From an uncultured Clostridia bacterium (lineage in GTDB: Bacteria > Bacillota > Clostridia > Oscillospirales > CAG-272), in the NCBI GenBank assembly GCA_944384525.1, contig CALWTR010000044.1:1-56886 (forward strand): DNA of 56,886 bases, in the 5' to 3' direction. Shown here in pieces: positions 14,134-51,770 of this stretch. A program made the translations under genes and the position numbers. How positions within the stretch are numbered: the first letter of the stretch is position 1; every line of letters starts with the position of its first letter. The notes below the pieces were generated by a model. It worked only from the letters and a program-made list of their open reading frames with translations. It made no database searches and was not told where the DNA came from.

Positions 14134-14204
14134 CGTTTTTATATGGGTATATCCAGGTATATTTTCCCTGTAAATGAAGTATAATGCGCAAAATTCCGGG
14201 GAAA

Positions 14205-14229
14205 GATATCAAAGAAATATTTTGATATC
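14205..14229. repeat. Perfect inverted repeat in the spoVAF leader
   Basis: GATATCAAA-GAAATAT-TTTGATATC: 9-bp arms with no mismatch, just upstream of the Shine-Dalgarno of spoVAF. It could be an operator or an mRNA hairpin. It would be internal to the gene if the earlier ATG 14174 were used. Confidence 0.55.
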
Positions 14230-14251
14230 AGGCAGGGGAACGTATTTTAAT

Positions 14252-25973: not shown

Positions 25974-26002
25974 TTGACAAAAAATTATATATTATTTATA
26001 AT
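25974..26002 (+). promoter_or_regulatory. Sigma-A promoter for the lipoprotein gene
   Basis: Consensus TTGACA (25974-25979) and TATAAT (25997-26002), 17 bp apart. The TTG of the -35 box could be mistaken for a start codon in the same frame. Confidence 0.9.
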
Positions 26003-26033
26003 ACAATTACAACACCAAAGGAGGACAGTATTT

Positions 26034-27614
26034 ATGAATATCGTAAAAAATATAAAAAGGTTGACTTTTTTAGCCTTTATGCTTGCTATGTTACTCACGG
26101 TAGTATCCTGCGCTTCTAAAAATTCGGATAAACTGTTCAACGATAAGATACTGGAGATCGAGTCTACTTCTACAAAGCTCGATACAAAGGGAAATAATAT
26201 AATTTCTCTTGACGCTAAGAAAAACGTGCTTCTGAGCAAAGAGGAGAGCGGCAAAACCACATATACGCTTTATAACGCTGATTCACAGTCGGTTATAGCG
26301 GAGTCTGAATATGCATTTGAGTTTACTAAGCCGAACCTGTATATTCTCAAAACCCCAAGCAGCGACAATACCGCTACGGAGTATAATTTCTATACCGAGT
26401 CGGGGCTGATCAAGAATATAAGTGTTCCGAACTCCTCGAACGTAAATAATTATTTCGTAGTTGATACCGATGAATCGATCCGCTTCTCTGACGGAAGTTC
26501 CATACAGCTGGTCAACGGTGAGGCTTATAAATTCTTTTCATCGGGCGAGGGCAACTCTCCCGCTCCGCAGTTCAGCACGGACGATGTCAAAGCCGGAAGG
26601 TTTTACTATGATGTTTACAACAACTGTGTGTCCGTTTTTGATTCGGATAAGAATTTCCTGCGCTTTACCGATGTGGCGGCCGCGACAGGTTATAACAACG
26701 ACGATATACACTTCTGCGGAAATATAGAAGAAAAGCTCGTGTTCCAGGTCAATATCAATATACCGAACGACAGCAAGAAGTATTCTTACTTCGTCGATTC
26801 CAATAAGTACGATCTCATCACCTATACATACAATCTCAAAAACGGCAAAATAGAAGAGAAAAAGAATTTTGACTTCATAATAGATAAGATAGATTACATC
26901 GAAGATTACAGCAAGTGCGGCTTGGCTTACGGCTATTATATCAACGATGCAAAGACCATCTCTTCCTATATAGTACAGGCGTTTGATGACGGATTGGACG
27001 TTGCCGTAGATATACAGGCGATGGTTCCCGGGGCGTGTGAGATATACTGGATGGATGAATACAAGCTCATGATAGACGGCTCGGAAAACTATCATATATT
27101 CAAGGGCAAGGATGAGATAACCTTTATATCCGGCGAAAATTCAAGTGAGATGATGTTTAATATGGGCTCGCTCATTCAGACCGGGCATTATATATACTAT
27201 GATTCCGTATATTCTGTCGACGGAACGTATTTGACAAGTATCCCGGATAAGCGTACCAATACCGTTTTCGCGGGTAATAAACTGCTGTATACGACTCAGG
27301 TCAAGAATGACGGTGAGCCGAGCAAGACGATGCTCTACATAGTAGATCTCTCCAGCGGAGAAAAAACAGGTTCAGAGGGAGATATACTGATGGATTACAA
27401 ACTTGCATATACAAAGAATGATGACGGTACGGTAAATTATATATCGCTCTTGGACGGAACGAAAATAGCGGATAATGCAGGGAGCCAGGTGGTTTCCTTC
27501 GCGGGATGTGAATATGAGAATGAATATGTATTTATATACGGATTCTCGTCAGCTGCCAACATTCCCGACTATTTCTGCCACACTATCAAAAATATTTATC
27601 TAAGTGAGAAATGA
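26034..27614 (+). CDS. Lipoprotein of unknown function, probably beta-propeller-like
   Basis: 526-residue secreted lipoprotein. The signal peptide has basic residues, a hydrophobic core and lipobox VVSC, with lipidation at Cys26. The mature part is rich in Tyr, Asn, Asp and Ser. It has recurring short beta-like segments (for example YTLYNADSQSVIAESEYAF, FVDSNKYDLITYTYNLKNGK), as in extracytoplasmic beta-propellers. No catalytic motif is recognised. ATG 26034 has AAAGGAGG 9 nt upstream and a consensus promoter 31 nt before it. The frame extends further upstream only through the promoter. It is monocistronic between nifJ and a catabolic module. No function is assigned. Confidence 0.85.
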   Translation: MNIVKNIKRLTFLAFMLAMLLTVVSCASKNSDKLFNDKILEIESTSTKLDTKGNNIISLDAKKNVLLSKEESGKTTYTLYNADSQSVIAESEYAFEFTKPNLYILKTPSSDNTATEYNFYTESGLIKNISVPNSSNVNNYFVVDTDESIRFSDGSSIQLVNGEAYKFFSSGEGNSPAPQFSTDDVKAGRFYYDVYNNCVSVFDSDKNFLRFTDVAAATGYNNDDIHFCGNIEEKLVFQVNINIPNDSKKYSYFVDSNKYDLITYTYNLKNGKIEEKKNFDFIIDKIDYIEDYSKCGLAYGYYINDAKTISSYIVQAFDDGLDVAVDIQAMVPGACEIYWMDEYKLMIDGSENYHIFKGKDEITFISGENSSEMMFNMGSLIQTGHYIYYDSVYSVDGTYLTSIPDKRTNTVFAGNKLLYTTQVKNDGEPSKTMLYIVDLSSGEKTGSEGDILMDYKLAYTKNDDGTVNYISLLDGTKIADNAGSQVVSFAGCEYENEYVFIYGFSSAANIPDYFCHTIKNIYLSEK

Positions 27615-35914: not shown

Positions 35915-35969
35915 CGGTAAGTTCGGATATTTTTTGAAAGGGGGCTTTTTGCAAAGCCCGTTTGAATAT

Positions 35970-36935
35970 ATGGTAAAAGTTGAAAATCTTGTAAAGAGGT
36001 ACGGCTCGAATTACGCGCTGAACGACGTTTCTTTTGAGATAAACGAGGGTGAGATAGTCGGGCTTCTCGGACCGAACGGAGCGGGAAAAAGTACCGCGAT
36101 GAATATATTGACAGGTTATCTGTCCGCTACATCCGGCAGTGCTTATATCGATGGAATAAGCATGGTGGAAAAGCCGCTTGAGGCGAAAAAGCTGATCGGA
36201 TTTTTGCCGGAACAGCCGCCCGTTTATCCGGAGATGACGGTGTGGGAGTATCTCAACTTCGTCTATGAGCTCAAGGGATGCACCCTGCCGCGCAAGGAGC
36301 ATATTGAGGAAGTAATGGACGTTGTCAAGCTCGGCGACGTGCGGGACAAGCTCATATCTCATCTTTCAAAGGGATACAAGCAGAGGGTCGGTATAGCACA
36401 GGCGATCATGGGCGACCCGAAGGTCGTCGTTTTTGACGAGCCGACGGTAGGTCTCGATCCTAAACAGATACTGGAAGTAAGAAACTTGTTGAGGACTCTA
36501 GGAAAGCGGCACACCGTCATTTTGTCTACGCATATCCTCAGCGAGGTGCAGGCGGTATGCGAGCGTATAATCATAATAAACAAGGGCCGGATAATAGCCG
36601 ACGAGAAGACCGAGGAGCTCACCCGTGCGATAGAAGATACGTACAGGTATGAGGTCAGGATATCCGGACCGCAGAAGGATGTTCTCGCCGCGCTCAAGAA
36701 GGTCAACGGAGTGACGGGTGTAGAGCGCACGGACGGGCGCGACGCGGACGCACAGATATATATAGTCGATACGGCGAAGGGGATCGATATCAGAAAGCCG
36801 CTGTTTTACATGTGCGCTGAGCACGGGTGGCCGATACTCGGACTTTCTCCGTTCGGAACGGATCTTGAAAGTATTTTCGTAAGGCTGATAGACAGGTCTG
36901 ATATCCAGATGAGACCGGAGGGAGGAAACAAATAA
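35970..36935 (+). CDS. ABC exporter ATP-binding protein, GldA-like
   Basis: ATPase subunit of an ABC-2-type transporter, 321 residues. Seen: Walker A LLGPNGAGKSTAMN (about 33-42), Q-loop region FLPEQPPVYPEMTVWEYL, signature LSKGYKQRVGIAQAI, Walker B VVVFDEPTVGLD and the H-loop STHILSEV. A C-terminal extension of about 100 residues is typical of the GldA/NatA group. I take ATG 35970. TTG 35949 and TTG 35934 are in frame, and the AAAGGGGG site (35937-35944) is closer to TTG 35949, so the start is uncertain. Its stop overlaps the permease ATG (TAATG). It is the first gene of a five-gene operon. Confidence 0.93.
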   Translation: MVKVENLVKRYGSNYALNDVSFEINEGEIVGLLGPNGAGKSTAMNILTGYLSATSGSAYIDGISMVEKPLEAKKLIGFLPEQPPVYPEMTVWEYLNFVYELKGCTLPRKEHIEEVMDVVKLGDVRDKLISHLSKGYKQRVGIAQAIMGDPKVVVFDEPTVGLDPKQILEVRNLLRTLGKRHTVILSTHILSEVQAVCERIIIINKGRIIADEKTEELTRAIEDTYRYEVRISGPQKDVLAALKKVNGVTGVERTDGRDADAQIYIVDTAKGIDIRKPLFYMCAEHGWPILGLSPFGTDLESIFVRLIDRSDIQMRPEGGNK

Positions 36936-37642
36936 TGCTCGCCGTTTACAAGAAAGAGATGAGGTCGTATTTCACGACGCCGATCGGGTATGTTTTCGTC
37001 GCAATATTCCTGCTCGTCGGGGGAGCGATGTTCAGTTATACGACGCTGTATTCCATGACGTCGAATATGAGCGCATATTTTACTTATATGATGCTGATGC
37101 TCATAATACTTTTGCCGATATTGACCATGAAGTCATTTACAGAGGAGAAGAAGATGAGGACGGAGCAGCTCTTGCTGACTTCGCCTGTTCCGATAACATC
37201 GATCGTGCTCGGAAAATTTCTCGCCGCGTACACTATGTTTGCCGGCAGCTTCATATTCAATTCACTGTACTTCCTTATCCTTTACAGGTATGCTGAGGTC
37301 AAGACGGGACTGCTCATAGGCAATATATTGGCGATGCTCCTTCTGGGTATGAGCTTTATAGCGATAGGACTTTATATATCCGCGCTTACCGAGAACCAGC
37401 TCGCGGCGGCTATCGGAACTATCGCCGTGCTGCTCCTTCTCCTCGGTATAGGACTTATAAACATGCTTCTGCCGGACAAATACTGGCTGAGATACGTTAT
37501 AGACTGTATATCCGTATTTACGAGGTTCCAGACTTTTACAAACGGATATTTTGATTTTGCATCGCTTATTTATTACTTGTCTATAAGCGGCATATTCGTT
37601 TATCTTACGGTGCGCGTTTACGATAAGCGCAGATACAGCTGA
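36935..37642 (+). CDS. ABC-2 type permease, GldF-like
   Basis: Membrane subunit of the exporter, 235 residues with six TM helices. Seen: the N-terminal IYKKE-like VYKKEMRSYFTTPIGYVFVA, SFTEEKKMRTEQLLLTSPVP, which is the classic GldF-family loop, and GMSFIAIGLYISALTENQLA. ATG 36935 shares a base with the ATPase stop (TAATG), so translation is coupled. It is followed after 14 nt by the first GldG-like gene. The cargo is unknown. Confidence 0.93.
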   Translation: MLAVYKKEMRSYFTTPIGYVFVAIFLLVGGAMFSYTTLYSMTSNMSAYFTYMMLMLIILLPILTMKSFTEEKKMRTEQLLLTSPVPITSIVLGKFLAAYTMFAGSFIFNSLYFLILYRYAEVKTGLLIGNILAMLLLGMSFIAIGLYISALTENQLAAAIGTIAVLLLLLGIGLINMLLPDKYWLRYVIDCISVFTRFQTFTNGYFDFASLIYYLSISGIFVYLTVRVYDKRRYS

Positions 37643-37656
37643 CACCGGAGGATAAA

Positions 37657-39171
37657 ATGAGCTTTTTTGATAAAATGAAAGCGAAGATAAGCCCGAGGCG
37701 GCTCGACGGCGCGGCCGTCACGGCACTGGTCATATGTCTCGCGGCGATATTGAATATAATATTTTATATGCTCGGTAATCGCTACGGGCTCTATCTCATG
37801 TCCGAGAAAAAGGATTACTACGATATATCGGAGAACTCTGCGGATCTCTTTACCGACGAGCTTGTAAAGGGCAAGACAGTGAAGGTGATCTTCTGCGACA
37901 CGGAGGACAACGTCAGCATGTCGGACACCGGATATCTCGTGCTGGATACGGTAAAGAAATATGCGGAGAAGTATGATTTTATAGAGTATGAATGCATAAA
38001 CATGCTCACAAATCCTCGCCTTGTCGAAAAATACAAGACGGATATGGACGGGAACGAGCAGGTGCTCAGAAAGACAACGGTCATATTTGAGTGCGGGGAT
38101 TATTATTTCACGATAACGGATGCGGTATCCTCGTCCGGCTACGGCGGATTTTACAATCTTGACGAGAACGGAGCGATATCCTCGTATAACGGCGATCTGA
38201 TAGTTGCGTCTATGGCGGCGTATGTGCTGACCGGAAGAAACCTGAACGGCGATCTGCCTGAGGGCGAGGAAATATATCATGCGGACGGCCATCTGAGCGT
38301 GTATTTCGTCACCGGGCACGGCGAGAGGGCGGACACCGCTCTCTATAACCTGCTTATCTGCGCAGGTTATCATGTGGGATATGTCAACACAAGATCCGAG
38401 GAGATACCGGAGGATGCGGCATTCCTTATAATATCGAACCCGATATACGATTTCGAAAAGGCGTCTTCCGGATCCGGAATAGTCACAGAGTCGGAGAAGA
38501 TAAAGAGATATGTCGCGGGCGGCGGAGATGTTTATATCTCGGTCGATCCGTATACCGACAGCCTGCCTGTGTTTGAAGAGTTGCTCGGATATTTCGGCAT
38601 GAAGATATCGCGGAACATCGTGTCCGACCGGACCAACGCGATAACTTCTGACGGTTTTACCTTCGTTGCGGAGACTTCCGACTCCGGCGTATCGGCTCAG
38701 CTCGGCGAGACGTTCCGGAAATATTCAAGCGGACGAGTGATAATGCGCGACTCTACTTCTATAGACTTCTGCGACAGCAGTTTTGCCACTGAGCCTTTGC
38801 TGCTCTCATCTCCCGATACACTTCTGAAGAGGGACGGAGAGACGGTAGGAGAGGGCTCTGCTGTGGTAGCGGCGCTCAGCAAGGCTGAGAGCGGCGGGAA
38901 CATCGTCCTTGTCGGAGGCTCTGGGGTCACTGCATACGACGCGATCTTCAGCACTCTGTACGCCAACAGGGATTTCATGTTTGCGGTATCCGAGATATTC
39001 GGCGCGGAGTATGCGCCGTACGGGATAACCGCCGCGAAATACGATGTCGAAACGCTTGAAAACCTCACGATGGGGACGGCGCGTGCGATAACGATCGTGC
39101 TTGTGCTGGTGATCCCGGCGCTGATCGGTACGGCGGGGATATATGTTTACGTTAGGAGAAAGAACAGGTAA
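37657..39171 (+). CDS. GldG-like ABC transporter auxiliary protein (copy 1)
   Basis: 504 residues: one N-terminal TM helix (about 22-45), a large extracytoplasmic domain and one C-terminal TM helix followed by VRRKNR. Seen: YYDISENSADLF just after the first helix, the family motif VYFVTGHGERADTALYNLL and SGGGDVYISVDP-like VAGGGDVYISVDPYTD, all of the ABC_transp_aux (GldG) family. A GGAGG site precedes ATG 37657. It forms the operon with the ATPase and permease genes and is followed 5 nt later by a second, related gene. Confidence 0.9.
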   Translation: MSFFDKMKAKISPRRLDGAAVTALVICLAAILNIIFYMLGNRYGLYLMSEKKDYYDISENSADLFTDELVKGKTVKVIFCDTEDNVSMSDTGYLVLDTVKKYAEKYDFIEYECINMLTNPRLVEKYKTDMDGNEQVLRKTTVIFECGDYYFTITDAVSSSGYGGFYNLDENGAISSYNGDLIVASMAAYVLTGRNLNGDLPEGEEIYHADGHLSVYFVTGHGERADTALYNLLICAGYHVGYVNTRSEEIPEDAAFLIISNPIYDFEKASSGSGIVTESEKIKRYVAGGGDVYISVDPYTDSLPVFEELLGYFGMKISRNIVSDRTNAITSDGFTFVAETSDSGVSAQLGETFRKYSSGRVIMRDSTSIDFCDSSFATEPLLLSSPDTLLKRDGETVGEGSAVVAALSKAESGGNIVLVGGSGVTAYDAIFSTLYANRDFMFAVSEIFGAEYAPYGITAAKYDVETLENLTMGTARAITIVLVLVIPALIGTAGIYVYVRRKNR

Positions 39172-39176
39172 AATAT

Positions 39177-40841
39177 ATGAAGTTGAAAAATATTTTCGGA
39201 AAGGCGTCCGGCAGAAAAAGGTTGCTGACGCTCTGCGCCGTGCTCATCATAGCGGCGGCAGCGGCGATAAACCTTATTCTTAAGGACGTCGGACTTAAAA
39301 ATTCAGTCTTCATTGATCTGACTCCGGAAGGACTGTATACTGTAAGCGATGCGATGAAAGAGGAGTGCTCCTTCCTCAGCGATATGGATCCTGATTCCGT
39401 AAAAATAACCTTTTGCGCGGATCCGGATACGCTGACCTCAAACCAGGGCACCAGAGTGGTGTATTTTATGTCTCTGCAGCTCCAGAAGCTATTTCCCGCG
39501 GTCACAGTTGAGACGATAAACGCGGAATATAACAAGACCGCGTTTTCCAAATATATGCCTACGCGTTTCACCGAGATATCCTGGAACGATGTCATAATCA
39601 GCTATCAGGACCGTTACCGCCGTTTCAATGCGGAGGAATTCTGGACGATAATGAGCAGCGGAGAATATTGGTCGTACAACGGAGAATATAAGATGACGAC
39701 CGCGTTCCTCTCCCTCGTAACGACAGGTAAGACCAGCGTATATTTTGAGACGGGTTACGGCGGAAAGTATTACGACGCAGGAGACCCGGAGAGCGAAATG
39801 AGCCAGGAGCTCTATGAGTTCTACTGCCTCCTCGGCGATCTCGGCTACAATGTAAAGACTTTCAATATAAAGGAAAGCGAGATACCGGACGACTGCGCGA
39901 TGCTGATCCTTGCAGGACCTACCTCCGACTTCACATATGACAGCGGCAGACTCGACGATATCACTTATGTGTCTGATATAGAGAAGATCGACAGATATCT
40001 TATAAACCGCAACGGTTCGCTCATGGTGTTCCGCGACGCTGCCGCGGGCGACCTCCCGGAGCTTTATGGGTTCCTTGAGGAATGGGGTATAGAGTTTGTG
40101 GATTCCACGGTCGTCGACAGCAGCTCATCGCTCGCAGATCAGAGTATGAGCGGCACAGGAATTCTCGCGCAGTATAACACAAATCCGGAAAGTTTTGCGG
40201 CGACCGTATATGAGGATATAGCCTCTATCAGCTCGTCGCCTCGTGTGGTAGTTCCATCTAGCGGTTTTGTGCGAAATCCCCGCCCGTCGGATGAGCACAC
40301 GGTATCCGGAGTTACCAGCACCATGCTTTATTATAACAGCTTCTTATCGACCACTGCGGACGCGAGAGCATACGCGGGCAACAGTGTATCCGGCGAGGTT
40401 GTCGGCGAGGGCGTCATGGACCTTGCGGCGGTCGCGGTCAGGACTTATGTCGACAGCGAGACCTCAAATTATCAGTACTCGTACGTTTTCGGCTGCGCGA
40501 GCATGGATGTTATATCATCAGAGTATATCGGCGATCCGTCATATGCAAATTACGACGTGCTGTATTCCCTTACCGGTATAATAGCAAGATCAGATATATA
40601 TGCCTCAAGTGACCTCGGAGGACTGAACCTGAATTCCCCGAACATGGGAGGCAAGGAGCTTGTGGATGAGAGCATAGGAACGGAAAACAGAAACATATAT
40701 GACTCGTCCAATAATATTGCCGGGGTCAAGCACGGACTTACTACGGCGCCCAAGGTGATATATATAGTGATCGCTATGCTGATACCGGTATCTGTGGCGA
40801 TAGTCGGCGCAGTCGTATGTATAAAGAGAAAGAACCGGTAA
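39177..40841 (+). CDS. GldG-like ABC transporter auxiliary protein (copy 2)
   Basis: 554 residues with the same layout as copy 1: an N-terminal TM helix (about 15-33), a large extracytoplasmic domain with YTVSDAMKEECSFL, SVYFETGYGGKYYDAGDPES and MLILAGPTSDFTYDSG, and a C-terminal TM helix ending in IKRKNR. The near-identical C-terminal tails (VRRKNR / IKRKNR) and the same layout indicate an old duplication. The sequences are otherwise well diverged. Gap to copy 1 is 5 nt. The two copies may form a heterodimer on the permease; this is inference. Confidence 0.88.
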   Translation: MKLKNIFGKASGRKRLLTLCAVLIIAAAAAINLILKDVGLKNSVFIDLTPEGLYTVSDAMKEECSFLSDMDPDSVKITFCADPDTLTSNQGTRVVYFMSLQLQKLFPAVTVETINAEYNKTAFSKYMPTRFTEISWNDVIISYQDRYRRFNAEEFWTIMSSGEYWSYNGEYKMTTAFLSLVTTGKTSVYFETGYGGKYYDAGDPESEMSQELYEFYCLLGDLGYNVKTFNIKESEIPDDCAMLILAGPTSDFTYDSGRLDDITYVSDIEKIDRYLINRNGSLMVFRDAAAGDLPELYGFLEEWGIEFVDSTVVDSSSSLADQSMSGTGILAQYNTNPESFAATVYEDIASISSSPRVVVPSSGFVRNPRPSDEHTVSGVTSTMLYYNSFLSTTADARAYAGNSVSGEVVGEGVMDLAAVAVRTYVDSETSNYQYSYVFGCASMDVISSEYIGDPSYANYDVLYSLTGIIARSDIYASSDLGGLNLNSPNMGGKELVDESIGTENRNIYDSSNNIAGVKHGLTTAPKVIYIVIAMLIPVSVAIVGAVVCIKRKNR

Positions 40842-40911
40842 TATCCGGACCTGTAAAAACACCGCAAAGTAATAGCCGCGCGTGTATTGCCGCCGCGGCA
40901 TGGAGATCGAA

Positions 40912-43653
40912 ATGAAGAGTAAAAAACTTATAATAACTCTGTCTTCTGTGTTTGTCCTGCTGGTAGCTCTGCTTTTTGCAGTCGTATTGCCGATAGTTAA
41001 TTCCGGAGACGATACGACGACGCCTGCTCCCGTCCCGCTTGAGGGTGAGGGCGTGCTCTACGGAAGTCTTATGACCTATCCGCAGGTCAAAGAGGAGAGC
41101 ATAGAGAGCATTTCAATTTTAAATGACAACGGAGGTTACTCATTCGCAAAGGACGAGGAACTGAGCGACTTTTTCGTCATATACAACGAGGAGGGTTATC
41201 CGTATCTGCCTCCGGTATATCTCAAGGATTCGGAAGTCCCGTATTCCTCCTTTTACGCTACCGATTCTTTCGGCGATTACGGAAGCGTGTATCGTCTGAC
41301 GTATCTGACCTCTGCGATCGGTACGCTCTATTTTTCAAACAGAATAGAGATCACGGATGATCTTGACCTCTCTCAGTACGGGCTTGCCCGCAACGAAGAG
41401 GGCGGATTTGACAGGGCCTTCATGATAGAGTATAAAGATGACGACGGCAATCTCAAGTCGCATACCGTTATAATAGGAGATGCGACTCCGAACAACTCCG
41501 GGTATTATACTCTTGTCGACGGCAGAAACTATGTTTACGTTACCTCAAACAAGAACCTGTCATACGCGCTCGAGAGCGTTAATTACTTCATCAAGCCGGC
41601 GTCTACGGCACCCGGTTTGGCGATAGACAAGGGGCAGGAGCCTTATCTCGTATCGGATTTTGCGGAATGGAAGGTCTTCTTCAACGAGGAAGAGGGGACC
41701 GTGATCGAGGACGGCGTCAACGTGATAGTAACTGCGGGCGTTGCCCAGTCTTCCGGAGAGTATGAAGAGGACGAGAAAAAGGAAATAGACTTGTCCGACA
41801 AAGGGGTTTATGACGAGATCAAGAACGCCCTCCTGGGCAAGACCGTCGGATCCGGGGATGGTATATTCTTTACGTTCGATACTATGAACGAGGACGGGAA
41901 ACACGGCGTCTCGGTGGGCGACAGCTGTGTTTACAGCATACTGTCGATAGATGCGGTAGTTTTGACGGACAGCGAGATCACTGAGGCAGGCTATCCTGTG
42001 GGGAGCAATACGCGTCTCAAGGTGTCATACCGCCGCACTGTGAACGGCGAGCCGGACGATGAGGTATACAGCGGTTATATAGACCTTTCCTGGGAATTCC
42101 TTGACGAGTCGCTCGTTGCTCTGCTGAGCGATAAGACGGTCGGCAAGTTCGCGTCCCCTCTGGAGTATTCCATAGTTTACACCGAGGACAATACAAAGGT
42201 ACTGAAGGGCAGTCTGATCATAAATTCGATAGAGGCGATATACAACACCTCCGGTTTTGATATCCCGAAGGTAGTTGAGGAGTGCATAGTACTTGTCAAT
42301 TGTTCATATGTGATAGACGGGGTCAATGACGGTCAGGAGCACAGATATTCCTATGATTTCAGCCGCAAGGATGACAGCGGAAATATGGTTTATGCGGACG
42401 TCTATGAGAAGCTCAAGGGGATGACGGTAAGCTCTGGACTGTCGATCGAGGTGGAAAACACATCGATATACAGCTCGGTGTTCTCCAGCTTCACGACTTA
42501 CAGGATCAGCAGTATAGATGCTGTCGTGACAAAGAAGAAGGTGGTTTCGTTCCACTTCAGCAATGCGTCCGAGAGGGATCCGTTCTATTCCGAGTTGCTC
42601 TATACCAATACTACCGACAATGAGAACTGGATATACGGTCTTAACGATTCCTCATGCACCGAGATAGTGCGTCTTTTCGGAGGGATAGATATCTCTTCAA
42701 GCAGCGGAGATGCACACGGGCTAATAGGCCTGGAGACGGTAGCGATCGGCCTTGATGCAGAAGTTAAGGTAAAATACGGGCTGTACGCTAACATCATATA
42801 TTTTGAGCTCCCAAGATATATAAGCGACAAATATGTAGACGGAGAGCTTACCGATGATTATACCTGGATGTATACTCTGGGATTCACGCTTTATATAAGC
42901 GATGAGACAGAGGACGGCTACAGGTATGTCGGCAGTGATATGTACGATAACGTAATAAAGGTCTCCGGCGACGCGCTGGATTTCCTCGACAAGAGCTTTG
43001 CTGAGTATTGGGCGAGGAAGACCTTGGTCATAATCGACTCGAACGACCTCACCGGTCTTACCTTCGACGTAAATATGAAGAACGAGGACGGAGTCAGCCT
43101 CGGCACCTACGATTTTGATATCGCGCACAGGCAGGATCCGATACAGGGCTCGGAGGCGACTTACGACCACATGATCCCGACAGTGACCGTATCTTCGGAG
43201 CTTGATACAGCGCTTTCTCTGTGGATGGAGAAGAAAGGGGTTACTGAGGCAAGCTTTGAGGAGTTCTTTGCCGAGGCGACCGGAGAGATACAGTACGGAA
43301 CCGATACGATAGGTACGGCATATCTCAAAAAACTTATACTGATGCTTTACAGTACAAAGTATGAGGGCATACTCACCGAGGAAGAAAAGGCGAATGCAGT
43401 AGAGGGAGAGGAACTGCTCACGATGTCCGTGTCGCTGAAGGCTGGAGGTGCGGAGCGTACCTATGTATATAAATTCTACCGTGTGAGCGACAGACACGTT
43501 ATGGTCTCGCTTTACGGCAGGACGAGCTCCGGGGCATATTCGACGGTATCGGATTTCTATGTTCTTTCCTCGGATCTCAAGCGTGTGGTCAGCGCGCTGA
43601 TGTGTCTGGTGAACGGAGAGAAGTTCGACTCTGATTCAACTTATATCAACTGA
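40912..43653 (+). CDS. Very large DUF4340-like membrane-anchored protein
   Basis: 913 residues: short N-terminal TM anchor (about 5-25: LIITLSSVFVLLVALLFAVV) and an extracytoplasmic remainder. DUF4340 proteins usually follow GldG in Gld-type ABC clusters but are much smaller (about 300-450 residues). Here repeated beta-rich segments such as YTLVDGRNYVYVTS, YSGYIDLSWEFL and EHRYSYDFSRKDDSGN suggest several copies of a similar unit. I chose ATG 40912 (GGAG 6 nt upstream) over ATG 40900 and GTG 40882. It is the last gene of the operon, followed by a strong hairpin. Its role is unknown; its position suggests part of the exporter's external assembly. Confidence 0.82.
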   Translation: MKSKKLIITLSSVFVLLVALLFAVVLPIVNSGDDTTTPAPVPLEGEGVLYGSLMTYPQVKEESIESISILNDNGGYSFAKDEELSDFFVIYNEEGYPYLPPVYLKDSEVPYSSFYATDSFGDYGSVYRLTYLTSAIGTLYFSNRIEITDDLDLSQYGLARNEEGGFDRAFMIEYKDDDGNLKSHTVIIGDATPNNSGYYTLVDGRNYVYVTSNKNLSYALESVNYFIKPASTAPGLAIDKGQEPYLVSDFAEWKVFFNEEEGTVIEDGVNVIVTAGVAQSSGEYEEDEKKEIDLSDKGVYDEIKNALLGKTVGSGDGIFFTFDTMNEDGKHGVSVGDSCVYSILSIDAVVLTDSEITEAGYPVGSNTRLKVSYRRTVNGEPDDEVYSGYIDLSWEFLDESLVALLSDKTVGKFASPLEYSIVYTEDNTKVLKGSLIINSIEAIYNTSGFDIPKVVEECIVLVNCSYVIDGVNDGQEHRYSYDFSRKDDSGNMVYADVYEKLKGMTVSSGLSIEVENTSIYSSVFSSFTTYRISSIDAVVTKKKVVSFHFSNASERDPFYSELLYTNTTDNENWIYGLNDSSCTEIVRLFGGIDISSSSGDAHGLIGLETVAIGLDAEVKVKYGLYANIIYFELPRYISDKYVDGELTDDYTWMYTLGFTLYISDETEDGYRYVGSDMYDNVIKVSGDALDFLDKSFAEYWARKTLVIIDSNDLTGLTFDVNMKNEDGVSLGTYDFDIAHRQDPIQGSEATYDHMIPTVTVSSELDTALSLWMEKKGVTEASFEEFFAEATGEIQYGTDTIGTAYLKKLILMLYSTKYEGILTEEEKANAVEGEELLTMSVSLKAGGAERTYVYKFYRVSDRHVMVSLYGRTSSGAYSTVSDFYVLSSDLKRVVSALMCLVNGEKFDSDSTYIN

Positions 43654-43751: not shown

Positions 43752-43779
43752 TTGCTTTTTTGAAAAAGTATGATATAAT
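43752..43779 (+). promoter_or_regulatory. Sigma-A promoter for the first trigger-factor-like lipoprotein
   Basis: TTGCTT (43752-43757) and TATAAT (43774-43779), 16 bp apart, with extended -10 TGA. Start of transcription near 43786 leaves a leader of about 125 nt. Confidence 0.75.
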
Positions 43780-43912: not shown

Positions 43913-45670
43913 ATGAAAAAGTTGATCAGCGCAGTTCTCCTTGTTGTGATGATAGCGTGTGTGTTCACAAGCTGCACCTATAATTACTCCAAGAAGGACC
44001 TTGACCGTTATCTCGACGTCTCCGGACTCGATCTTACAAATCTCGGGCTCAAGATAACTGACGGAGATTTTTATGACGACGAGACTAACAGAAATACCCT
44101 TACACAGTACAAAATGTACAGCAATATGGTAGACGCGCTCGTTGATACCACCAAGGGCGATGGGCTCAAGGAAGGTGTCATAGGTGCAAATGACGTCATG
44201 TATTATAACTACTACGGTGTAGTTACCGACAGCGACGGGGTAGAGCATGTTATCTATACCGCATACATGGATTCCTCTAAGGTGACCGGCGCGGAGTTCG
44301 GCTCTGCTGAGGCAGGAAGCCTTACTGAAAAGATAAAGAACAGCTCGATGGTAGAGATATCGGATCACCTCTATACGACTGATAAATCGACCGACCGACA
44401 GGTCGAGGAGGGCAATACGATCCTCATAACCTATACCGTAGTGTATAAATTTACGGTAGAGGACGCAAACGGAGCATCCTCCCTTATGGAGCAGGAGTAC
44501 ACCGTTACGAACGAGATACGCGTCATAGACTCCGCTGACGGATTCGACGCCGCGTTGATAGGCAAGAAAGTCGCTACAAAATTTGCGACCGGCAGTGACG
44601 GGGATGACAAGCTCGTCGTCCAGAACGTCACCTATAAGCATGAGGGCATAGATTATAGCGCAGAGGCTACTTATTCAAATATAACCGTCAGCCAGCTGAT
44701 GACAATGGGCAACGAGATCGTAGTTAACGATAAGACCTTCGATGAGAAACAGGAGGTCAAGGATACTCTCGGCAGAACGGTCGATCTTAACGGGCTTGAG
44801 ATAAGCTATCATATTTTCCCGGTATACTTCTACCAGATCCCGGCGATATCCGCAGAGATAGTCCTTGACGATATCAAGGCGTCCGGTCTTCCCTGCATGA
44901 CGACAGAGGATGAGGAACTGAAGGGGATACTTGATACTATAAACGAGAAGAGGGGCGATATATCCGAGCTCGAGGATGCAATAGAGGACTATGATGAGGA
45001 CGACTCTGAGAAGTCACTTGAAGAACTCGAGGAGGAGCTCGCGACCAGAGTGAACGAGCTCAAGGAGGCAGATAAGCAGTTCATTGAAAAGGTCGGAGCG
45101 GACAAGATACTCGAGGAGTACAGAACTCAGGTATACGACCTGCTCGTTGAAGAGTACGAGAAAGATATAAATACCAAGATCGCAGAGAAGCTGTGGGACT
45201 ACCTGCTCGATAAGCTTACGATAAATTCCGATAATCTTCCGAGCACGGCAGTAAAAAATGTATATAACCAGCTCATGGATAACTATGAGAGCGACTTCTA
45301 TACAGGAACGACCTCTTCCAGCTCCTCGGAGACGATATACTCCAAGTACGGCGGAAACTTCCAGCAGTATCTTATGGATCAGGAATCAGCGGATTCCTAT
45401 AAGGAAGCGAAATCCAAGGTCGAGGCTAATGCTCAGCAGATAGTAAAAGAGCTGATAATTATATATCAGGTCAGCAAGCATCTTAACGTCTGCATGACGG
45501 ACGAACAGTTTGAGGAGTATTGCAAGGAGCTCCAGAATTCCGGCTCTTACACCTACTATGTATATTACTACGGATTTGATAACAATGTAAGAGATGCTCA
45601 TCAGTTTGATCTTATGATCAACAAATATATAGAGCTCTACGGAAATACTGTAACAAAAGAGAGAAAATAA
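43913..45670 (+). CDS. Trigger-factor-like extracytoplasmic foldase, lipoprotein (copy 1)
   Basis: 585 residues. Lipoprotein signal peptide MKKLISAVLLVVMIACVFTSC with lipidated Cys21. The mature part follows trigger-factor order: a degenerate FKBP-like region (GANDVMYYNYYGVVTDSDG, LTEKIKNSSMVEI), a link region with LGRTVDLNGLEISYHIF, then a helical C-terminal chaperone domain with a long coiled coil (about 340-395) and LWDYLLDKLTINSDNLPSTA as in TF-C. The FKBP active-site aromatics are poorly kept, so isomerase activity is doubtful. ATG 43913 has AAGAGG upstream. It is a paralogue of the gene at 46250 and is separated from the ABC operon by a hairpin and its own promoter. Confidence 0.75.
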   Translation: MKKLISAVLLVVMIACVFTSCTYNYSKKDLDRYLDVSGLDLTNLGLKITDGDFYDDETNRNTLTQYKMYSNMVDALVDTTKGDGLKEGVIGANDVMYYNYYGVVTDSDGVEHVIYTAYMDSSKVTGAEFGSAEAGSLTEKIKNSSMVEISDHLYTTDKSTDRQVEEGNTILITYTVVYKFTVEDANGASSLMEQEYTVTNEIRVIDSADGFDAALIGKKVATKFATGSDGDDKLVVQNVTYKHEGIDYSAEATYSNITVSQLMTMGNEIVVNDKTFDEKQEVKDTLGRTVDLNGLEISYHIFPVYFYQIPAISAEIVLDDIKASGLPCMTTEDEELKGILDTINEKRGDISELEDAIEDYDEDDSEKSLEELEEELATRVNELKEADKQFIEKVGADKILEEYRTQVYDLLVEEYEKDINTKIAEKLWDYLLDKLTINSDNLPSTAVKNVYNQLMDNYESDFYTGTTSSSSSETIYSKYGGNFQQYLMDQESADSYKEAKSKVEANAQQIVKELIIIYQVSKHLNVCMTDEQFEEYCKELQNSGSYTYYVYYYGFDNNVRDAHQFDLMINKYIELYGNTVTKERK

Positions 45671-45682
45671 AGACATATTCTG

Positions 45683-45713
45683 AATAAGGACGGATGCTCT
45701 CCGTCCTTATTTT
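45683..45713 (+). terminator. Rho-independent terminator
   Basis: AATAAGGACGG/CCGTCCTTATT 11-bp stem, then TTT, just after the first foldase-like gene. Confidence 0.82.
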
Positions 45714-45801
45714 AAATATGAGAACAGCGGATAGCGGCGTCCGCCGTTCCCGCCGTTATCATGATCGCCGTATCAGGCATGGAGGGCCGCCGCTTTACAA
45801 T

Positions 45802-46236
45802 ATGAGAAAAGTTGAAATATATACCGACGGTGCCTGCCGCGGAAATCCCGGGAGAGGCGGATGGGGAGCGATCCTCGTGTATAAGGGACACGAAAAGGAG
45901 CTCTCCGGCGGAGAGGCTATGACGACCAATAACAGAATGGAGCTGACCGCGGCGATAGAGGGGCTATCGGCGCTGAGGGAACCGTGCGAGGTCGAGTTGT
46001 ATTCCGATTCAAAATATCTTGTTGACGCCGTAAATCAGGGATGGATATACTCCTGGCAGAGGAGCGGCTGGCGCAAGGGAACGCGCGACGAGGTCAAAAA
46101 CCCGGATCTGTGGCAGAAGATATGCGAGTTGCTCCGGATACACCGCGTGAAGTTCATATGGGTCAAAGGGCATGACGGACACAGCTATAATGAAAGATGT
46201 GACGCCCTTGCCACCTCATACGCAGATTCACTGTAA
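45802..46236 (+). CDS. rnhA: Ribonuclease HI
   Basis: Degrades the RNA strand of RNA-DNA hybrids. Seen: [20 protein letters not shown] (first Asp), [13 protein letters not shown] (Glu), [16 protein letters not shown] (Asp), [19 protein letters not shown] (His and last Asp), plus the basic handle [20 protein letters not shown] of the E. coli type. ATG 45802 gives 144 residues and matches the family start. A longer frame from 45694 adds a low-quality Arg-rich leader that overlaps the preceding terminator. GGAGGG is rather far (15 nt) upstream. It is probably co-transcribed with the second foldase-like gene, 13 nt downstream. Confidence 0.95.
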
Positions 46237-46249
46237 AAAGGAGAATGTA

Positions 46250-47728
46250 ATGAAAAACATATTGAAAAGGATATTGTGCGCCGCTATAGCGGTATCTTCG
46301 ATCGTGTCTTTACTGGCGCTGTCCTCCTGCTCGTCCGATACATTCAATTATCTGGGCAAGGATCTCAGCTCATATATATCTTTCGACAGATCGGATTATT
46401 ACGGACTCAATGTTCAGATCGAGCTCGACCGTGTGACGGACGAGGATGTGGATTTTGAAATAATACGCACGCTCGCAGCAAACAAAACCACCGCAAAGAA
46501 TAACGGAGCAAAGACGTATAATGCGGTAATAGGTCCCGGAGATATAGTTTATATAAATTATGTCGGATATTATCTCGACGAAAACGGAGAACGCGTTTAC
46601 TTTGACGGAGGCTGTAATTTCGGCTCTGACCCGGACGATCTTGAGATCGGAGCGGAGGAGGGGAGCGGTTTCATCCTCGGCTTTGAGAGCAATCTTATCG
46701 GTCATAATCCGCAGGAGACAACCGATAAATTCAGCGTATATACGAGCGGCACTGTCCTTGAAAACGATATAATCTATATAACTTATACGGACAGCGACGG
46801 CAATAAGCATACTAACCGCAGGGTCGATCTCTCCTCGGACGATCTTGATGCGGACTTCGGCGTAGGATTCCGCGATTTTATAATAGGTCAGACCGTGGGA
46901 GAGGAGCTGGAGGCAAAGGTATTTGACAATCCGGGCGGATTTGACTATCTCTATACGTCATGGGAGGTATCGATGCGCACCGAGGGCGAGGAAAACCTCA
47001 TAACTGTGACAACGTATTTCCCTGTAAATTACAGCAGTGACGAGCTGAGAGGCAAGGTCGCGTATTTCGACGTGTATATAAAGAATATAATCGACTATAA
47101 CGCTCCGGATCTTACGGCGGAGTTCATAAAGGACACGCTTAAGTTCGAGACCGACAAGACAAATGACGATGAAATAATAGCCGCTTACCGCGACCATGTC
47201 AGAGCTACGCTCGAAGATGAGTTCGATACCAGCTACCGCGATCTTGCGGATATGGCGCTCTGGGATGTATTAAAGAGCAATTTTACCGTTAAAAAATTGC
47301 CGAAGAGCGCAGTTAAGGCGGAATATAATTCGCTCCGTTCCGAACTTATCAGTTATTATAACAGTACGACCAATTACTCGTCTCTCGATGACTGCGCAGA
47401 GAGCCTTTTCGGCTATGACGAAAGCAAGTACGAGAGCTACACTGACTATCTTGACGAGGCGGCTGAGGAGGTCGTGACCGAGAAGCTGATCCTTTACAGT
47501 ATACTTAAGGCGGAAAATCTCTATCTTTCGGATGAACAGATGAATTCCGAAATAGACGGACTCGTCAAGGAGTATGCAGAATATTATTCTATGTCGGAGG
47601 AGCGGATACTCAGCATATACGACAGAGAATTCTTCATAGAGTCGGTGTATTATTCCTATGTGATGAATACCATGATAGATTTTACAAATGTGACCGTCAC
47701 CGGAAAGAGCGCGGACGTCACCAGATAA
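46250..47728 (+). CDS. Trigger-factor-like extracytoplasmic foldase, lipoprotein (copy 2)
   Basis: 492 residues. Lipoprotein signal with LSSC and Cys27. The FKBP-type core is clearer than in copy 1: GPGDIVYINYVGYYLDENGE (95-114), VYFDGGCNFG, LEIGAEEGSGFILGFESNLI, and the trigger-factor end strand VTTYFPVNYSSDELRGKVAY then FDVYIKNI. A second FKBP-like stretch, DFGVGFRDFIIGQTVGEELE, lies in an insert. The helical C-terminal domain has ADMALWDVLKSNFTVKKLPK then SAVKAEY, as in TF-C. AAAAGGAG precedes ATG 46250. Cytoplasmic trigger factor has no signal peptide, so this is a membrane-tethered version, expected to fold exported proteins, as PrsA does. Confidence 0.82.
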   Translation: MKNILKRILCAAIAVSSIVSLLALSSCSSDTFNYLGKDLSSYISFDRSDYYGLNVQIELDRVTDEDVDFEIIRTLAANKTTAKNNGAKTYNAVIGPGDIVYINYVGYYLDENGERVYFDGGCNFGSDPDDLEIGAEEGSGFILGFESNLIGHNPQETTDKFSVYTSGTVLENDIIYITYTDSDGNKHTNRRVDLSSDDLDADFGVGFRDFIIGQTVGEELEAKVFDNPGGFDYLYTSWEVSMRTEGEENLITVTTYFPVNYSSDELRGKVAYFDVYIKNIIDYNAPDLTAEFIKDTLKFETDKTNDDEIIAAYRDHVRATLEDEFDTSYRDLADMALWDVLKSNFTVKKLPKSAVKAEYNSLRSELISYYNSTTNYSSLDDCAESLFGYDESKYESYTDYLDEAAEEVVTEKLILYSILKAENLYLSDEQMNSEIDGLVKEYAEYYSMSEERILSIYDREFFIESVYYSYVMNTMIDFTNVTVTGKSADVTR

Positions 47729-47743
47729 AATCATATAGCACAG

Positions 47744-47787
47744 AAAAAATGCGGCTGGATCCTTAATGGATCCAGCCGCATTTTTTT
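47744..47787. terminator. Bidirectional terminator
   Basis: AAAAAATGCGGCTGGATCC/GGATCCAGCCGCATTTTTTT: a 19-bp perfect stem with loop TTAAT, between converging genes. Confidence 0.93.
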
Positions 47788-48158: not shown

Positions 48159-48211
48159 TGTTAATGGTGCGTCGTCAATTCGGCGCGCCAAGTACAACAT
48201 GGAGAAAATAT

Positions 48212-49012
48212 ATGAATATTCTGAGCTTCGGCGGCGACAGAAGGATTCATGAAGCGCTCCGCCTTTTTCGCGCGGCAGGATACGGCGTGCAGCTGTATCC
48301 GGAGACGGGCGAGGACGCGGAGATACTGTTTTTGCCGTTCCCGGTGACGCGGGACGGAGAACATTTGAACAATTCAGAAAGAACGCCTCTTGGCGAGGCG
48401 GAGAAATTTCTTGCGGGAGCAAAATATGTTTTCGGGGGAAATATTCCGCCCGTCTTCCGCCGCTCCGGGACTGTGAGTGCGGATCTTATGCAGATAGATG
48501 GCTTTGTCAGGGAAAACGCGCGCCTGACAGCTGAGGGCGCGCTCAAAACACTGATAGGTCTGTGCGACAGGTCGCTTTCCGATTGCGTTGTCGGTATAAT
48601 AGGGTACGGGAGGATAACCTCCTCTCTTTCTCTTATGCTTCTGTCCCTCGGCTGCCGTGTAAAAATATATACCTCAAGGGAGCATATCCGTGTAGCTCTC
48701 GGGACTGTCGGGATATCGACCTCCAGCGTGTCGTATGACGGCGCGGAGGGGACCGATCTGTCCGACGTTGACATAGTAGTGAATACAGCGCCGGCTCCGG
48801 CGCTCTGCGCTCAAACGCTTGCAACTCTTCCTGCCTGCGCCCCGATACTTGAGCTTGCCTCCGGAAATAACATAGAGGAGGACGGGATACACAAAGTTGT
48901 GCGCGAAATGGGCATACCCGGCAGGGTGATGCCGCTCAGCGCCGGAAAACTTATATACGAGTATTCAAGAGAGATCCTGGAGGGATCAGACGCGCCCGCA
49001 ACTGAGCGCTGA
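48212..49012 (+). CDS. dpaA: Dipicolinate synthase subunit A
   Basis: With DpaB it oxidises dihydrodipicolinate pathway intermediates to dipicolinic acid, the spore-core calcium chelator, in the mother cell. Seen: N-terminal MNILSFGGDRRIHEALRLF, AKYVFGGNIPPVF, then a Rossmann NAD(P) motif VGIIGYGRITSSLSLMLLSL and DVDIVVNTAPAPAL, ILELASGNN, LPLSAGK-like MPLSAGKLIYEY. ATG 48212 (GGAGAA upstream) gives 266 residues; an extension to 48164 is not conserved. It is followed 43 nt later by dpaB. Many clostridia lack dpaAB and use EtfA instead, so this is informative about lineage. Confidence 0.93.
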   Translation: MNILSFGGDRRIHEALRLFRAAGYGVQLYPETGEDAEILFLPFPVTRDGEHLNNSERTPLGEAEKFLAGAKYVFGGNIPPVFRRSGTVSADLMQIDGFVRENARLTAEGALKTLIGLCDRSLSDCVVGIIGYGRITSSLSLMLLSLGCRVKIYTSREHIRVALGTVGISTSSVSYDGAEGTDLSDVDIVVNTAPAPALCAQTLATLPACAPILELASGNNIEEDGIHKVVREMGIPGRVMPLSAGKLIYEYSREILEGSDAPATER

Positions 49013-49055
49013 ATTTTTTACTTTGAGCTGAAATTTGAGGGGATAAATAAAAAAT

Positions 49056-49616
49056 ATGATAGGATATGCATTTTGCGGTTCCTTTTGTACATTGAGCCAT
49101 TCATTGGCGGCGCTCCGGCGTTTGCGGACGGAAGGGGTGGAGGTACAGCCGATAATGTCGGAGCGCGCCTGGGGGACCGATACAAGATTCTGGCGTGCGG
49201 AGGATTTTATAAAGACAGTAGAGGAAATGTGCGGCAGGGAAGTGATCCATACGATCGTGGACGCGGAGCCTTTGGGACCCGCACTGCCGCTTGAGGCGCT
49301 GGTGATAGCGCCTTGCACCGGAAATACTCTTGCGAAAATAGCGGCGGGAATAACTGATTCTTCCGTCACTATGGCGGCTAAGGCGCATCTCAGATGTGAC
49401 AGACCGCTTCTTATCGCTCTGGCGTCGAACGATTCTATGTCTCAGAACCTTTCCAATATAGCTACGTTGCTTTTGAGGAAGCAGGTGTATTTTGTTCCGA
49501 TGCGTCAGGATGATCCGGAAAAAAAGCCGCATTCTCTTGTCGCTGATTTTACTTGCCTTTCCGATTGCCTTTCCTCGGCTCTGGAGGGAAAGCAGGTCAG
49601 ACCTCTTTTCCTTTAG
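49056..49616 (+). CDS. dpaB: Dipicolinate synthase subunit B
   Basis: Flavoprotein-like partner of DpaA, 186 residues. Seen: GYAFCGSFCTLSHSLAALRR at the N-terminus, MSERAWGTDTRFW, then APCTGNTLAKIAAGITDSSV and LLIALASNDSMSQNLSNIAT, the phosphopantothenoylcysteine-decarboxylase-like FMN fold typical of SpoVFB. It ends with YFVPMRQDDPEKKPHSLVAD. It forms a two-gene unit with dpaA. The asd-dapG-dapA genes that often follow it in Bacillus are absent; instead a structured repeat follows. Confidence 0.95.
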   Translation: MIGYAFCGSFCTLSHSLAALRRLRTEGVEVQPIMSERAWGTDTRFWRAEDFIKTVEEMCGREVIHTIVDAEPLGPALPLEALVIAPCTGNTLAKIAAGITDSSVTMAAKAHLRCDRPLLIALASNDSMSQNLSNIATLLLRKQVYFVPMRQDDPEKKPHSLVADFTCLSDCLSSALEGKQVRPLFL

Positions 49617-49997: not shown

Positions 49998-51770
49998 CTA
50001 ATTTGTACCGTTTTGTTCCTCTTTGCGTCTCATGAGGCCGCAAATCCGGCTGATCGCAAGCGCTCCTGCGGCTAATGCCGCCATAAATACCGTGCAAGTC
50101 AATAGAGGCATTGAAAAATAAGGCGATGAAATAAGGTTGTAAGCGGTCACGGTTATTTCTCCCTCGGTCCCGGCTCCGGAGATCCTAATCTCGCCTCCGC
50201 TCTTTGAAATATAGGTAAAATCCCCACTTTCGTTTACATTTATAAGAAATGCGCGGTCAGAGGACTGGAACTGCTCGCCGTTTACTGTTATGCGGATAAG
50301 AGCGGCGCTTTCCGGCATCAGCAAACTCAGCGATTTTTCCATATAAGATATCATTGTATCGGCGCCTGAGTTCGCAGTATAAAAGAATTCATCGCCGTCG
50401 CTCGTTACGGTCACATTCGAAAGTATCTCTTCTTTTTTGTTATCCTGCCCGCGCGTATATGCCATATATCCGTTGGTGTACACCGATGAGCCAAGAACAA
50501 CAAGAGAGAGCACAAGGGCTGATGTTCGTATAGCTATGCCTGCCGCACCGCATCCATGCGGCTTTAATGCGGCTAGCAAAACGGGAGGAATGAGAAAAAT
50601 AAATATCGCCGCATATGGGATCACTGTGACATCAAAACTGACGGCGGACATCGGTGCGGAAGAAAGTATGAGCAGAAGGAGGAGCCATACAGAGCTCATC
50701 GCAAGCAACAGCGCGGACGAGCCTTTTTCTGTTTTTGTCTCGTTAACACTGCATTTGTTCGCGGCGGGCAAATTCACAGAGGGCAAGGCGATCTCGCTTT
50801 TTTTTAGGTCAGTTCCGAATTTATTCACGGTGGAGTCGCTTTCTTTCAAGTCGGTTTCAGATTTGTTCAGGGCGGATGCGCTTTCGCCTTCCTTACTGCA
50901 AACGCTACTTTTATCCACAGACGATAAGATCGCGCCGACTGTCGCGGAGAGCGCGCCGAATGCTGATATGAACACCAGTGCGGCATATATTCGCCCAAAT
51001 ACTGATCCGAAAATGTTTTCAAGCTCATCCGCTGCATCAGCCGCTCCTGATCCGTAATAACCGGATATACATACGACTGCGAAAACAACCACTGTCACTG
51101 CCGCGGCAATGCTTTTCCCGCTTTTTCCTTTGCCTGACGAGAGGAGCAGAGGCCATCCGGCAAATATGAGAAGTGAGGCGCAGAATGCCGAAGAGGTATC
51201 TCCGGCCGACACTGAAAACAGCTCCTGACTCCCGTATGCTCCTGATGTCACTCCGTATATTATCCCGGCGCAGGCGAGCACGGCCGGAGGGAGAAGTATT
51301 GCAACAGCGGCGGCTATCCTGCCTTTTTCGCATCCGTGACCCGCGATATGCCGAAGTAAAAACGTAAATATAAGAAACAGAAATGAGAGAGACGCGATCA
51401 TCGTACCGTTCCCGTCGGCTCCGAAAACAGCCGCGGCGTACTTTGCGGCCGTAAATGCAAATGTCGCCGTCATTGCAGGATAGTATGCGACAGCCATGAA
51501 CCATTTGAAAAACTCCCCGTATCCAGCTCCGGCGCAACGTGAGACCGCAGAGGATATGTCGTCGCTGTCGGTAGCGGCGCTTTTAAGCGCCAGAAGGCAA
51601 ATGACGGCAGGGAGACAGGCGACAAATGCGGCAATTATTGCCGACAGCATTCCGGCTCCGCCGGCACGCATCGTTTGCGGCGCTAGCAAAAGTCCGGGGA
51701 CAGCGGCAGCCGAAAATATCAAAAATGCATTTTTTGTAAATGAAACTTTACTGAATGAAGAATTGTTCAT
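49998..51770 (-). CDS. APC-superfamily-like permease with an extracytoplasmic C-terminal domain
   Basis: 590 residues. The N-terminal half looks like an amino-acid/polyamine/organocation transporter: SFTKNAFLIFSAAAVPGLLL with APQTMRAGGAGMLSAIIAAF, then GAGYGEFFKWFMAVAYYPAM. About nine TM helices run to residue 290. A polar Ser/Asp/Lys-rich loop (about 290-345) contains a 14-residue duplication, two or three more helices follow, and then an apparently extracytoplasmic beta-rich domain (about 440-560: IRITVNGEQFQSSDRAFLIN) and a final TM helix with a basic tail. Relatives usually lack the C-terminal domain. CGGAG precedes ATG 51770. Substrate unknown. Confidence 0.7.
   Translation of the reverse strand: MNNSSFSKVSFTKNAFLIFSAAAVPGLLLAPQTMRAGGAGMLSAIIAAFVACLPAVICLLALKSAATDSDDISSAVSRCAGAGYGEFFKWFMAVAYYPAMTATFAFTAAKYAAAVFGADGNGTMIASLSFLFLIFTFLLRHIAGHGCEKGRIAAAVAILLPPAVLACAGIIYGVTSGAYGSQELFSVSAGDTSSAFCASLLIFAGWPLLLSSGKGKSGKSIAAAVTVVVFAVVCISGYYGSGAADAADELENIFGSVFGRIYAALVFISAFGALSATVGAILSSVDKSSVCSKEGESASALNKSETDLKESDSTVNKFGTDLKKSEIALPSVNLPAANKCSVNETKTEKGSSALLLAMSSVWLLLLLILSSAPMSAVSFDVTVIPYAAIFIFLIPPVLLAALKPHGCGAAGIAIRTSALVLSLVVLGSSVYTNGYMAYTRGQDNKKEEILSNVTVTSDGDEFFYTANSGADTMISYMEKSLSLLMPESAALIRITVNGEQFQSSDRAFLINVNESGDFTYISKSGGEIRISGAGTEGEITVTAYNLISSPYFSMPLLTCTVFMAALAAGALAISRICGLMRRKEEQNGTN
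50799..50882 (-). repeat. 42-bp in-frame duplication in the permease loop
   Basis: Two adjacent 42-bp copies encode SALNKSETDLKESD and STVNKFGTDLKKSE. They lie in a hydrophilic loop. Confidence 0.7.

Follow-up and report, generated by a model that had tools for sequence, protein, structure and literature searches.

Two predicted trigger-factor-like lipoproteins with insertions in the FKBP domain kept beside a Gld-type gene cluster in a genus of uncultured Clostridia

LTF1 and LTF2 (lipoprotein trigger factors 1 and 2) are paralogous proteins encoded on either side of rnhA in a 56,886-nucleotide stretch of DNA, the window, from an uncultured Clostridia bacterium of the Oscillospirales lineage CAG-272 (contig CALWTR010000044.1, assembly GCA_944384525.1). 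Trigger factor, the product of tig, is the textbook ribosome-bound chaperone. LTF1 and LTF2 are probably exported, membrane-tethered chaperones derived from it, PrsA- or PpiD-like, and possibly serve the Gld-type ATP-binding cassette (ABC) transporter encoded next to them. The unusual part is the nested domain and the keeping of the pair beside the Gld cluster, not lipoprotein trigger factors as such. If true, exported and tethered trigger factors would show that the chaperone arms are functional without the ribosome. The nested domain would be a natural counterpart of the engineered insertions that improve FKBP as a folding catalyst, and the kept neighbourhood a first handle on the Gld-type ABC cluster with DUF4340.

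Both reading frames are confirmed, and both proteins pass the Pfam cut-off for Trigger_C (22.7 bits), LTF1 with 33.6 bits and LTF2 with 46.3 bits. No other Pfam family is over its cut-off in either, and the same search gives no match to FKBP_C or Trigger_N. Against the NCBIfam tig model LTF1 scores 38 bits and LTF2 95.7 bits, both under the 180-bit equivalog cut-off. Among PDB sequences, LTF2 matches E. coli trigger factor at E 5e-8, and no relative of LTF1 was found. The paralogy proposed in an earlier note on this DNA holds, with a BLASTP E of 6e-10 between the two proteins and an hhalign probability of 98.6% between their family profiles. The predicted structure of LTF2 matches the fold of trigger factor residues 113-426, and LTF1 has a degenerate FKBP region with an insert, followed by trigger-factor arms with an extra coiled-coil-like stretch. 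A separate tig, with the N-terminal domain by sequence, lies elsewhere in this genome, on a different contig, and contains GFRKGKAP, which we take to be the ribosome-binding signature; LTF1 and LTF2 are therefore extra copies. Like trigger factor (PF05698, TIGR00115; PDB 1w26), they have an FKBP domain and then Trigger_C arms, but the FKBP domain is interrupted, catalytic residues are often lost, and the proteins are tethered and exported by pattern. These comparisons support the view that LTF1 and LTF2 descend from trigger factor with loss of the ribosome-binding domain. The pair is more than a chance arrangement, because its gene order recurs in relatives at about 30% identity.

Both N-termini have Lys/Arg residues, then a hydrophobic stretch, then a lipobox cysteine, and by this pattern both proteins are predicted to be lipoproteins. 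In LTF1 (MKKLISAVLLVVMIACVFTSC) the lipobox cysteine is Cys21 (...VFTSC21), which is invariant among five aligned LTF1s, with Cys16 (MIAC16) as a second possibility; in LTF2 (...SLLALSSC) it is Cys27. The export and tethering that the earlier note described are thus borne out by pattern, with an N-terminal helix in place of the lipobox in some orthologues. Relatives were classed by a strict lipobox rule, which excludes cysteines inside helices (for example L137), and by eye. In the LTF1 slot the rule gives a lipobox in 35/49 proteins, a helix in 12 and two fragments; three of the 12 end in LCSC or LCGC and are lipoboxes by eye, which leaves nine with a helix. The LTF2 slot has 18/53 proteins with a lipobox by rule, two in which one is seen by eye, 32/53 with a hydrophobic N-terminal helix, and one (L179) in neither class. 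Basic residues precede many of the helices, judged by eye, which favours an outside C-terminus. That the kind of anchor varies while anchoring is kept argues for an outside, membrane-near role. LTF1 is split over two frames in the L006/L138 genome, by sequencing error or decay.

The LTF2 insert is an FKBP-like domain inside the outer FKBP domain, in the loop behind the helix, and ends ahead of the Tyr82 equivalent, Y261. All 51 LTF2-slot relatives that were measured have it; where the insert is missing, relatives have 4-7 residues at this site. LTF1 carries an insert at the same place, the span being at least 90 residues in 48/49 LTF1-slot proteins and 6 residues in L150, a fragment. The inner-domain profile has a real score of 33.3 versus at most 6.0 in 58 column shuffles (60 were made; two of these reached 127 through an alignment of a single column and were discarded as numerical failures), and 0.9 against the C-terminal domain. 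Of the duplicated FKBP-like stretch that the earlier note saw in copy 2, the doubling stands, but the second domain is nested within the first, and copy 1 too has an insert there. The LTF2 of L143 (genome G160) apparently has two consecutive FKBP-like inserts, spanning 186 residues versus about 100. SlyD, too, has a second domain within an FKBP domain, though its inserted domain is not known to be an FKBP. The LTF2 insert is FKBP-like and stands ahead of the Tyr82 equivalent, whereas in SlyD, according to passages of PMC11013033, the flap between the residues equivalent to Tyr82 and Phe99 holds the insert.

A tree of 85 rows was built by a quick method, with support from the Shimodaira-Hasegawa-like approximate likelihood ratio test (SH-aLRT) only. 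In it LTF1 forms one group (SH-aLRT 97), as does tig (SH-aLRT 100). LTF2 is not one group; its label changes three times, starred branches forcing two of the changes, and some divergent LTF2s are placed at the base without resolution. The uninserted paralogues L240-L242 (genomes G162, G159 and G184), themselves lipoprotein trigger factors, fall among insert-bearing LTF2s, which suggests insert loss or recombination.

The surroundings of the pair were surveyed in 62 loci from 61 other genomes of the genus, which counts 69 with that of the window (G154, G158, G161, G165, G169, G187 and G210 were left out at the locus; L004-L008 are the same contigs as five surveyed genomes and were counted once). 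An RnhA match is present in 54/62 loci, and LTF, RnhA and LTF follow one another on one strand in 48/62. The complete set of GldA, GldF, GldG1, GldG2 and DUF4340 is also present in 34 of these 48, in line with the Gld-type association proposed earlier. Eight loci have no RnhA match, some of them at contig ends, and six have RnhA with one LTF neighbour found; several loci without the complete Gld set stop at contig or stretch ends. The rnhA gene is probably a passenger.

DUF4340 is present in 131/146 genomes of the family, and none of 31 DUF4340/Gld loci from its other genera has an LTF or RnhA match. The first 11 of these were picked for DUF4340 frames of 499-566 amino acids (aa), which biases the comparison, and 10 have GldA, GldF and one GldG. 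Among the next 20, with frames of 603-1073 aa, three have two GldG matches (L265, L276 and L279). In other genera DUF4340 frames start at about 300 aa and reach 1073 aa, and most of the Gld loci read there have one GldG; in the genus 39/44 DUF4340 frames are 949-1113 aa. Both a large DUF4340 and a second GldG are thus usual in the genus, but not confined there, and the idea that the cluster was enlarged solely in this genus was dropped. A literature search on Gld combined with DUF4340 found nothing.

It is possible to sketch how LTF1 and LTF2 would work as exported chaperones. A lipid or helix anchor would have taken over from the ribosome-binding domain. The Trigger_C arms would then lie outside, at the membrane surface, and hold polypeptides leaving the Sec channel, as in PrsA and PpiD, and the inserted domain, its catalytic residues lost, may be an extra surface for gripping substrates. 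LTF1 and LTF2 probably act together, given their retention as a pair. The outside domains of the Gld-type transporter encoded next to them, with its two GldG proteins and DUF4340, may be among their clients or partners. Going further, a genus-specific exported pair with an FKBP-like domain within an FKBP domain might be a chaperone devoted to outside assembly, either of the neighbouring Gld-type machine, with its two GldG and its large DUF4340 protein, or of what that machine exports, a tentative idea that seems possible rather than likely.

Several observations weigh against the chaperone reading or against the transporter as its client. The LTF2 model, built on six sequences, has a predicted local distance difference test score (pLDDT) of 75 and a predicted template modelling score of 0.59, and its global superposition on trigger factor is loose (root-mean-square deviation 8.4). 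The AlphaFold2 model of LTF1, with a pLDDT of 48, was too poor for a structure search, and the LTF1 orthologues of two relatives are without a Trigger_C match. The clients are a guess from the neighbourhood: L154 and L156 have other genes in place of the upstream Gld cluster, the LTF1-rnhA-LTF2 unit has a candidate promoter of its own, and two-GldG clusters occur without LTFs in other genera. Finally, a search with a PrsA-like lipoprotein (L212) gives matches in 63/69 genomes of the genus.

The L212-type matches mean that the LTF pair adds to PrsA-like proteins and is no stand-in for them; the pair as a PrsA replacement was therefore rejected, and with it the notion that it might be the sole exported folding helper. 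Among the L212-type loci read, 16/20 have a lipobox by rule and three more by eye, and the parvulin domain of L212 scores 20.6 bits, just below the Pfam cut-off of 21.7. PF00639 parvulins are found in 50/69 genomes of the genus and are mostly cytosolic in appearance; in 17/20 of the loci read the parvulin matches the cytosolic one of L196 (L196 being one of the 17), and L212-L214 do not match it. Genome G000, which is 72% complete, has no match in the searches for PF00639 parvulins and L212 lipoproteins. LTF1 and LTF2 would resemble PrsA, PpiD and SurA as membrane-tethered or exported holdases. The isomerase domain of those proteins is a parvulin, whereas LTF1 and LTF2 have none, with no Rotamase match (PF00639, PF13145 and PF13616) listed up to E 1. 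Excerpts of PMC2956729 describe the isomerase domain of PpiD and of one SurA domain as inactive.

The pair may instead be an accessory specific to the Gld-type ABC transporter, with a substrate-binding or scaffold role and general chaperoning lost. It adjoins the Gld cluster in most relatives, its catalytic residues are eroded, and the 31 Gld loci of other genera, which have neither LTFs nor RnhA, fit a specific link. The Trigger_C arms are kept, however, and the unit has its own candidate promoter and terminator. RnhA, which has no plausible role there, is equally tightly linked, so the adjacency may be inertia. The three two-GldG loci of other genera also do without LTFs, one of these loci having been chosen for its 1073-aa DUF4340 frame. 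Taken together, these points make an accessory role unlikely.

The isomerase site was read at seven FKBP12 columns, Y26, F36, D37, I56, W59, Y82 and F99. The LTF2 of the window has Y, F, D, I, F, Y and F there, identical to the tig of its genome, and may still isomerise prolyl bonds, which would suit a pair of active exported prolyl isomerases with the isomerase step as their main task. Against this, the three-residue core (F/Y, D/E and F/W at columns 36, 37 and 59) is intact in 11/51 LTF2-slot relatives and 0/49 LTF1-slot proteins, counts that misaligned columns in divergent rows may affect. The 51 exclude the window and two of 53 proteins under 400 aa; for the LTF1 slot one of 49 under 400 aa was dropped, the LTF1 of the window was added, and the fragments L138 and L150 were included. 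The Y82 column is Y in 43/51 LTF2-slot relatives. The inner domain of the LTF2 in the window is missing the FDGG and GFE motifs. The core counts make isomerase activity unlikely as the conserved function that selection keeps. Judged by its residues, LTF1 should be without prolyl isomerase activity, in agreement with the site loss claimed earlier for copy 1. Given these eroded sites, chaperoning is therefore the likelier kept function, and a pair devoted to isomerisation is improbable.

That LTF1 and LTF2 are ordinary tig paralogues, cytoplasmic with uncleaved N-termini, would suit the many LTF2-slot proteins with a helix and no lipobox, but the lipoboxes of most LTF1-slot proteins, the basic residues before many helices, the missing ribosome-binding domain and the separate tig make it most improbable.

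LTF2-profile matches that span the insert are found in at least 57/69 genomes of the genus, among the matches listed; three of these matches either come as two overlapping pieces or are truncated where a contig ends. Among the matches listed for the order sample, with 295 genomes at E 1e-12, three genomes have insert-spanning ones and each belongs to the genus. For the samples of the class (391 genomes) and the phylum (398 genomes), both at E 1e-16, they are listed from the window's own genome only; the three samples overlap and their coverage of species is partial. Two or more Trigger_C matches are present in 72/146 genomes of the family. Uninserted lipoprotein trigger factors occur in its other genera (for example L073-L084 and L009), with a lipobox by rule in 18/22. 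Like LTF1 and LTF2 they are built around Trigger_C, with FKBP_C in the scanned ones, which lack a full Trigger_N, although L077 is below the Trigger_C cut-off; they differ in having no nested domain in those aligned. The loci read have no GldF, GldG, DUF4340 or RnhA beside them, and some have generic ABC ATPase matches. Several genomes of the LTF1/LTF2 genus also have tandem uninserted lipoprotein trigger factors beside an opposite-strand ABC ATPase (L243-L247).

Exported trigger-factor-like proteins are easily visible via database models. The unusual foldase system of the earlier note is narrowed: the foldase part is only partly supported, given the core counts and the L212-type matches, and lipoprotein trigger factors occur in other genera, but the nesting and the pair beside Gld remain. 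Neither an exported trigger factor nor a nested FKBP was found described in the available portions of the open-licence literature. We rate the pair as known parts in a new arrangement, with genus-wide retention and a strong genomic link.

Table 1. Position of LTF1, LTF2 and neighbouring features in the window.
Feature	Position	Strand	Basis or remark
Gld-type cluster upstream of LTF1	35934-43653	+	Pfam and NCBIfam
GldA	35934-36935	+	Pfam/NCBIfam
GldF	36935-37642	+	Pfam/NCBIfam
GldG1	37657-39171	+	Pfam/NCBIfam; under the Pfam ABC_transp_aux cut-off
GldG2	39177-40841	+	Pfam/NCBIfam
DUF4340 protein, 914 aa	40909-43653	+	Pfam/NCBIfam
Candidate promoter of LTF1-rnhA-LTF2 unit (TTGCTT, 16 nt, TATAAT)	43752-43779	+	By eye; absent from the scan list
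LTF1	43913-45670	+	Trigger-factor-like lipoprotein, exported by pattern, 585 aa
LTF1 FKBP-like region with inserted second region (residues ~93-307), isomerase-site residues lost	44189-44833	+	Alignment with LTF2
LTF1 Trigger_C match (residues 400-541)	45110-45535	+	Pfam, E 5e-8
rnhA, ribonuclease HI	45802 (ATG)-46236	+	RNase_H E 3e-46; NCBIfam PRK00203 7e-65
LTF2	46250-47728	+	Trigger-factor-like lipoprotein, exported by pattern, 492 aa
LTF2 outer FKBP domain, part 1 (residues 90-157), FDGG and GFE motifs	46517-46720	+	
LTF2 inner FKBP-like insert (residues 158-250), without FDGG/GFE residues	46721-46999	+	
LTF2 outer FKBP domain, part 2 (residues 251-283), ITVTTYFPVNYSSDELRGKVAYFDVYIKNI	47000-47098	+	
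LTF2 Trigger_C match (residues 311-460), chaperone arms	47180-47629	+	Pfam; helical in model
Intrinsic terminator 3' of LTF2, long hairpin and T run	47743-47787	+	Fold -35.3 kcal/mol, z -7.67; absent from the pattern-scan list

Downstream of LTF2, the genes at 48164-49616 are presumably DpaA/DpaB (dipicolinate synthesis), and genes given the same label stand after LTF2 in several relatives too. GerA is encoded at 14174-15778. GerA and the presumed DpaA/DpaB point to a spore-forming host. Two long frames in the window, 25974-27614 (546 aa) and 49998-51770 (590 aa), have no Pfam match at E 1e-4.

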